Origin: an uncultured Bacteroidota bacterium
Lineage (GTDB): Bacteria > Bacteroidota > Bacteroidia > JABEUT01
Assembly (NCBI GenBank): GCA_903863935.1
Contig: CAIPDV010000022.1
Coordinates: 1 to 50,002, forward strand
DNA length: 50,002 nt
Reading direction: 5' to 3'
Both the position numbers and the translations under genes were made by a program. The notes below the pieces were generated by a model, which saw nothing but the letters and a program-made list of their open reading frames with translations, was not told the DNA's origin and made no database searches. Positions 25,537 to 25,960 of the stretch are shown piece by piece; the stretch's first letter is position 1; every line of letters begins with the position of its first letter.

Positions 25537-25667
25537 TTGAACGGGTAACAATGCAATAAGAGACTAATTATATGCTCTACCAACTGAGCTATCCGCCGCA
25601 GGCGGAACAGGAATTGAACCTGTGACCCCATAACCCCGAAGTAACTCTTATTTACGACACCATTCAA
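25537..25667 (-). ncRNA. Y-RNA-like unit 6, permuted tRNA opened at the anticodon
   Basis: Ends TTGAA/TTCAA pair, GGT/ACC follow, then an internal loop with GTCGTA, an eight-pair helix AATAAGAG/CTCTTATT, and TACTTCG (signature at 25637-25658). The head is a tRNA in the order T-arm (ACAGG/CCTGT, loop TTCAATT), closed acceptor hairpin TCCGCC-TGC-GGCGGA, complete D-arm GCTC-AGTTGGTA-GAGC. TATAA/TTATG acts as the anticodon stem, so the Y stem replaces the anticodon loop. Variable loop GGGTC is of normal length. Confidence 0.8.
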
Positions 25668-25673
25668 GAAGTT

Positions 25674-25809
25674 TTGACAAGGAGAAAAACGTAAAGCGAC
25701 TGTTAACTGAGCTATCCGCCAAAGGCGGAGCAAGACTTGAACTTGCGACCTCCCTGCATTGCTGCAGAACGCTCTTTCCGAAGTAACACTTCACTACGTC
25801 ACCTGTCAA
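25674..25809 (-). ncRNA. Y-RNA-like unit 5, permuted tRNA opened in the D-loop
   Basis: Ends TTGACA/TGTCAA pair. The signature GACGTA-N9-TACTTCG is at 25779-25800, and helix GTGAAGTG pairs with CGCTTTAC. The head runs GAGC (D-stem 3' strand), an 'anticodon' arm TTCTGCA-GCAA-TGCAGGG closed by a GCAA tetraloop, T-arm GCAAG/CTTGC with loop TTCAAGT, closed acceptor TCCGCC-TTT-GGCGGA, and GCTC (D-stem 5' strand). The Y stem therefore enters through the D-loop. Confidence 0.82.
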
Positions 25810-25823
25810 TATTATTTTTAAAA

Positions 25824-25960
25824 ATTGGTAAGGAGAAAAACGCAAGCGACTTTTAACTGAGCTATCCGCTTTTGGCGGAGCAGGAATTGAACCTGCGACC
25901 GTCCCGCATTGCTGCGGGATGCTCTAACCGAAGTAACGCTTTGCTACGTCACTCACCAAT
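25824..25960 (-). ncRNA. Y-RNA-like unit 4, permuted tRNA opened in the D-loop
   Basis: Ends ATTGGT/ACCAAT pair, then GAG/CTC. Signature GACGTA-N9-TACTTCG at 25929-25950; AAGCG/CGCTT forms the upper helix. The head has GAGC/GCTC as a split D-stem, a perfect seven-pair arm TCCCGCA/TGCGGGA with GCAA tetraloop in place of the anticodon loop, T-arm GCAGG/CCTGC with loop TTCAATT, and acceptor TCCGC/GCGGA closed by CAAAA. Same plan as unit 5 with compensating changes. Confidence 0.85.

Follow-up and report, generated by a model that had tools for sequence, protein, structure and literature searches.

The stretch of DNA analyzed here (50,002 nucleotides of contig CAIPDV010000022.1, assembly GCA_903863935.1; referred to as the window) comes from an uncultured Bacteroidota bacterium and carries, next to a Ro60 gene, a minus-strand array of six Y-RNA units. 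Units 4, 5 and 6 bear a transfer RNA (tRNA)-like head with the tRNA parts in circularly permuted order, and two permutations stand side by side: the chain of unit 6 appears opened at the anticodon stem, as in the bacterial Y RNA YrlA, and those of units 4 and 5 in the D-loop. Judging from sequence and predicted folding, we consider it fairly likely that the three are Ro60-associated Y RNAs that share one Y stem and hold the tRNA elbow for a partner at different angles, according to the permutation of the head. The permutation of unit 6 is the already known YrlA topology and only units 4 and 5 are new. We call their D-loop-opened head a second, uncatalogued Y-RNA topology, apparently a variant of the bacterial Y RNA; no earlier form of it was found in Rfam, in the described 6CU1 topology or in the searchable literature, and an earlier description in the primary YrlA papers is possible.

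A preliminary description of this DNA had placed permuted tRNA-like heads at 25537-25960, and all of their elements were located there on the minus strand, the strand of all array coordinates given below. A plus-strand reading of the array was ruled out, since both the tRNA-like parts and the YrlA matches lie on the minus strand. Unit 4 (25824-25960) carries the 5' Y motif GACGTA-N8-T-TACTTCG (25929-25950), the last G of which serves as G18. This is followed in the predicted fold by the D-stem 3' strand GAGC (25921-25924, also supported by pairing probability), a seven-pair stem with a GCAA tetraloop at the anticodon-arm position (25902-25919), the variable loop CGGTC, a T-arm with the seven-base loop TTCAATT (25880-25896), the closed acceptor hairpin TCCGC/GCGGA (25865-25879), and U8-A9 (25863-25864) with the D-stem 5' strand GCTC (25859-25862; together 25859-25864), and closes with the 3' strand of the Y upper stem and the 3' Y motif (25832-25848). 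The predicted fold of unit 5 (25674-25809) has the same layout, except for a six-pair acceptor hairpin (D-stem 3' strand, 25771-25774; GCAA stem, 25752-25769; T-arm, 25730-25746; acceptor hairpin, 25715-25729; D-stem 5' strand, 25709-25712). Both units thus run from G18-G19 through the D-stem 3' strand, the GCAA-looped stem, a five-base variable loop, the T-arm, the closed acceptor hairpin and UA to the D-stem 5' strand. Because of this order the two strands of the D-stem lie at opposite ends and the Y stem exits the D-loop between positions 17 and 18.

To score the two designs we used R1, a covariance model built from nine D-loop-opened heads, and R2, a model of YrlA-type heads. R1 gave 96.3 bits for unit 4 and 98.2 bits for unit 5, versus 33.6 and 35.4 bits with R2; the Rfam YrlA model matches only the inner part of these units (22.9-26.1 bits). 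Neither unit has the complete D-arm that follows the T-arm and closed acceptor hairpin in YrlA, and the Rfam YrlA model does not cover the D-loop-opened design.

Chance does not explain the D-split arrangement of the array. A D-split descriptor matched twice in the 801-nucleotide array and only once in total in 2000 dinucleotide shuffles, and the split D-stem is present in the unconstrained minimum-energy folds of unit 4 (z = -4.0, pairing probability 0.63) and unit 5 (z = -2.1, pairing probability 0.42). Coordinates, folds and descriptor therefore bear out the preliminary description of both units, which had the Y stem emerging from the D-loop, a split D-stem and a GCAA loop on a seven-pair stem. 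These results also argue against units 4 and 5 being decayed tRNA genes or chance folds instead of working Y RNAs, an idea that could draw on the ARAGORN call of unit 4 as tRNA-Arg(tcg) (25871-25959). That call is an artefact, as it takes the 5' Y strand for half of a tRNA at a place where the Rfam tRNA model has no match; in native order the tRNA covariance model (RF00005) matched nowhere in units 4-6. Furthermore, 15 other loci preserve the Y stem, the split D-stem and the variable loop and show compensating changes there, and we regard decay or chance, already contradicted, as extremely improbable. ARAGORN calls of this kind probably lead to false tRNA annotations at such loci.

Unit 6 (25536-25668) is built differently. 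Its inner order is T-arm (25607-25623), closed acceptor hairpin (25592-25606), UA and a complete D-arm (25574-25591), and the Y stem replaces the anticodon stem. R2 scores the unit at 81.0 bits versus 40.4 for R1. The Rfam YrlA model aligns along its full length, with a score (45.8 bits) that falls short of the gathering cut-off of 69.

The units can be compared with three known kinds of RNA. In vertebrate Y RNAs, Ro60 binds via a stem formed by both ends; unlike units 4-6, these RNAs have no tRNA-like head. Permuted tRNA genes and permuted transfer-messenger RNA (tmRNA; RF04321) likewise have tRNA parts in rotated order, but the Y-RNA acceptor is closed, so that there is no 3' CCA end, and there is no sign of rejoining into a tRNA; the only permuted-tmRNA match in the window (13.2 bits) is at chance level and outside the units. 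The nearest relative is YrlA (RF02553), described as a circularly permuted tRNA mimic (PDB 6CU1; PMC11472068), whose Y stem holds Ro60/Rsr and whose head interacts with PNPase and is a substrate of the modifying enzymes TruB and DusA (PMC8394870; PMC7790460). As in YrlA, the array combines a Ro60-linked Y stem with a permuted head of T-arm, closed acceptor hairpin and D-arm, in the same layout in unit 6. In the window and in relatives the array adjoins the Ro60 gene, and the two ends of each unit come together in a Y stem that carries a conserved motif. Units 4 and 5 differ from YrlA in that the D-stem is split, the chain is opened in the D-loop and the arm at the anticodon position is a closed GNRA stub.

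The D-loop-opened head recurs. With R1 we identified it in 16 Bacteroidota Ro60 loci, of which seven supplied training sequences for R1 and nine did not, and a YrlA-type head is present in all 16, extending the earlier remark that two topologies lie side by side in this array. Class-I D-loop-opened heads reach 68-98 bits under R1 and 23-41 under R2, and the YrlA-type heads that accompany them 47-97 under R2 and 27-55 under R1. R1 alone brought up three class-I heads that had not been used to train it (L039, L102 and L225). Class-II-like heads with a long variable arm occur in five genomes of another class (43.8-54.2 bits with R1 versus 15.7-22.7 with R2). In a GC-rich genome (L283), a D-loop-opened head with a GAGA loop lies in an array with canonical YrlA Y stems; this unit reaches 32.6 bits with the Rfam YrlA model and its two neighbours 73.2 and 73.0, above the gathering score, which apart from this locus was reached neither by the window units nor by the related loci tested. 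A scan of 395 genomes of the class gave four with a match above 60 bits. Applied to 59 loci whose Ro60 genes are distant and lie on viral contigs, the descriptor returned 38 matches of the YrlA type and none of the D-loop-opened type. Several candidates were set aside: the viral contigs L119/L120 and L134 look D-loop-opened and were left uncounted, with R1 at only 38 and 29 bits; descriptor matches in L038, L074, L116 and L118 have no Y motif, lie in tRNA clusters and are tandem tRNA genes; those in L045, L046, L058, L104, L113 and L131 are YrlA-type or chance; and those in L047, L048 and L089 are false.

The distribution of the two heads bears on whether they differ in use. They may be interchangeable, with the same partner and the same job, and the opening point may reflect neutral drift after duplication of tRNA-like segments, a possibility to which we give somewhat less than an even chance. 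It would account for the 46-nucleotide block of T-arm, acceptor and D-stem 5' strand common to units 4, 5 and 6 (85-87% identity), and for the minority standing of D-loop-opened heads, which occur in 6 of 80 named Ro60 loci compared with 75 for YrlA-type heads. However, D-loop-opened heads arose in class-I, class-II-like and canonical-YrlA settings, always beside a YrlA-type head, which hints at a use for both. The same three settings suggest that D-loop-opened heads had more than one origin, and because of the common block one kind of head in the window may have been made from the other. The permutations may have come, on more than one occasion, from tandem tRNA genes through a shift in register: a segment that runs from the D-loop of one tRNA gene to that of its tandem copy has exactly the order of the D-loop-opened head, and a tRNA-Asn gene triplet in a relative scores 39 bits with R1.

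How would such an RNA work? On our favored reading, in which units 4-6 are Ro60-associated Y RNAs, Ro60 would bind the shared Y stem, which comprises a lower stem, a CGUA motif, eight variable pairs, UACUUCG and a UUGCC-like 3' strand. The head would serve as a docking site for a protein that recognizes the tRNA elbow; for YrlA, the known partners are PNPase and tRNA-modifying enzymes. In both permutations the T-arm, closed acceptor, D-stem, five-base variable loop and elbow positions are preserved, whereas the anticodon arm of the D-loop-opened kind is unconstrained and in many cases a short GNRA-capped or three-base stub. Since the elbow, T-arm, D-stem and acceptor are kept while the anticodon arm varies freely, the target probably reads the tRNA body. 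In units 4 and 5, with the G of UACUUCG as G18, the Y stem leaves at the elbow. Ro60 would thus sit at the elbow with the D-loop opening and at the anticodon end with the other, and the same mimic would be presented at different angles. A stronger version, that the opening point sets the position of Ro60 relative to the elbow so that the two RNAs build two different Ro60 machines, with new permutations made repeatedly from tandem tRNA genes, is one that we put forward tentatively and find rather doubtful.

Several points weigh against the favored reading. The involvement of PNPase is extrapolated from other bacteria. The anticodon stem of unit 6, TTATG/TATAA, has a pairing probability of 0.02 and is not predicted to form, so that of the earlier account of this unit the complete D-arm stands and the stem is weaker than proposed; in the YrlA-type family at least three of the five pairs are present in 82% of 100 units versus 27% of shifted controls, and an anticodon stem in YrlA-type heads generally appears only moderately supported. 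The split D-stem has a pairing probability below about 0.3 in 6 of 13 heads and of 0.02 in one (L229), in calculations that ignore tertiary contacts. Finally, the compensating changes expected of homologues are present in the R1 alignment (95.8% of cells paired, compared with 36-44% for slid partners, and both-sided changes in 22 of 27 pairs), but structure guided the layout of the alignments (A3 and A4) and pairing the choice of most members, so that these covariation counts lean toward the model. For this reason we put more weight on features that were not used in picking.

Such features agree with a tRNA-like head. At the tertiary pair 15-48, 13 of 13 D-loop-opened heads have a Watson-Crick combination (G-C in 9, A-U in 3 and U-A in 1), a perfect match that, by a count of arrangements, random dealing of those letters would give about 3.5 times in 10,000, without correction for relatedness; in YrlA-type heads the pair is Watson-Crick in 96-97%. 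Directly after TTCG, at what would be position 19, G stands in 9 of 9 D-loop-opened heads versus 32 of 236 other units, and a five-base variable loop is found in 12 of the 13 heads. The tRNA spacing noted before is kept, and the 15-48 and G18/G19 positions, not considered then, fit as well. When rotated to tRNA order, 6 of the 13 heads are called as tRNAs by ARAGORN, compared with none in native order. D-stems of three types occur (GCTC/GAGC, GTTC/GAAC and GCTT/AAGC).

All six units share the 5' sequence CGTA-N8-W-TACTTCG, in which the eight variable bases (followed by A or T) pair with a strand 3' of the head; both-sided changes were seen in seven of the eight pairs of this stem. A search of 173 sequences for the Y motif together with a matching strand gave 383 units in 142 of them, and 352 of these units lie on the strand as supplied; some sequences are duplicates and some weak matches will be chance. 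Unit 1 (26190-26298), recognized by motif family and fold, has the Y motif, a hairpin and a T-arm-like hairpin without a D-arm; unit 2 (26048-26148) has the Y motif and a T-arm (26080-26096) without D-arm or acceptor hairpin; and unit 3 (25972-26046) has the Y stem and a minimal head without tRNA-like parts. A first unit like unit 1 (GGGGA(GG), hairpin, T-arm, CCCC), which is not YrlA-type, is also found in L030, L037, L051, L061, L083 and L282, ranging from Flavobacterium and Chryseobacterium to relatives of the window. In L119 (5864-5952), a Y unit seemingly lacks a T-arm and has only the D-stem 3' half and an anticodon arm with the loop CTTGTAA; it is possibly another kind of head.

On the minus strand the locus reads Ro60/TROVE, the six units (about 26298-25536), tRNA-Phe, a tRNA-Tyr-like gene and RtcB. 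The Ro60 gene (26389-27903; Pfam TROVE, 110 bits) is first of the group, and its product is 55-73% identical to Ro60 of 12 relatives and matches PDB TROVE-domain chains 9l5y/9kop (E 7e-22). Ro60 was found in none of 10 other genomes of the genus, several of them incomplete, so the locus is patchy within the genus and may be mobile. A WYL/WCX-domain regulator gene (28080-29192, plus strand; Pfam WYL 46.1 and WCX 38.7 bits) lies divergently upstream of Ro60, as in 28 of 68 full-length related loci, and perhaps stands in place of RtcR. Immediately ahead of the array, at 26308-26319, is GTTCTTTGA, which we take to resemble a boxA-like antitermination element; of 72 loci, 7 have it 23-35 bases upstream of their first Y motif, a strong enrichment given 22 copies in 1.03 Mb of loci overall. 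A sigma-70 promoter scan gave a result at chance level.

Between the array and the RtcB RNA ligase gene (23936-25333, minus strand; Pfam RtcB, 267 bits), the region 25362-25528 holds two minus-strand tRNA genes with standard copies elsewhere: a tRNA-Phe(GAA) (25454-25528; Rfam 55.3 bits), the second and weaker copy in the genome (the other scores 72.7 bits), and a diverged tRNA-Tyr-like gene (GTA; 25362-25445), whose sole match is tRNA-Sec (39.1 bits) and which is additional to a standard Tyr(GTA). Many Ro60 loci have large tRNA-gene clusters of up to 22 (L038, L039, L056, L059, L074, L102, L226 and others), as though Ro60, Y RNAs and RtcB were accompanied by a reserve set of tRNAs; at least five tRNA genes were present in 11 of the 80 named loci and none in 58. 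This neighbourhood, with RtcB adjoining the array, spare tRNA genes beside it and large tRNA clusters in some related loci, would suit heads that act as decoys, luring tRNA-cutting nucleases or tRNA-binding toxins from real tRNAs beside an RtcB that would reseal cut tRNAs, a role of the kind proposed for YrlA (PMC7790460). Yet anticodon loops are missing or remodelled in nearly all D-loop-opened heads (GCAA, GAGA, GTAA or 3-nucleotide loops), and a normal-looking seven-base loop survives only in L036 and the weak L119; in addition, a Salmonella nuclease did not cut YrlA (PMC7790460). Mainly because of the lost anticodon loops, we consider decoys unlikely.

Bacterial Y RNAs are the best-known natural permuted tRNA mimic and have been catalogued with one topology. 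Current RNA annotation misses the D-loop-opened units, and ARAGORN mislabels one as tRNA-Arg. A second topology that seemingly evolved more than once with its tertiary pairs kept would mean that selection keeps the tRNA elbow and not the order of the chain or the anticodon. Overall these findings suggest a route from tandem tRNA genes to permuted RNAs, and the pair of units may offer a natural test of how the angle between Ro60 and its partner matters.
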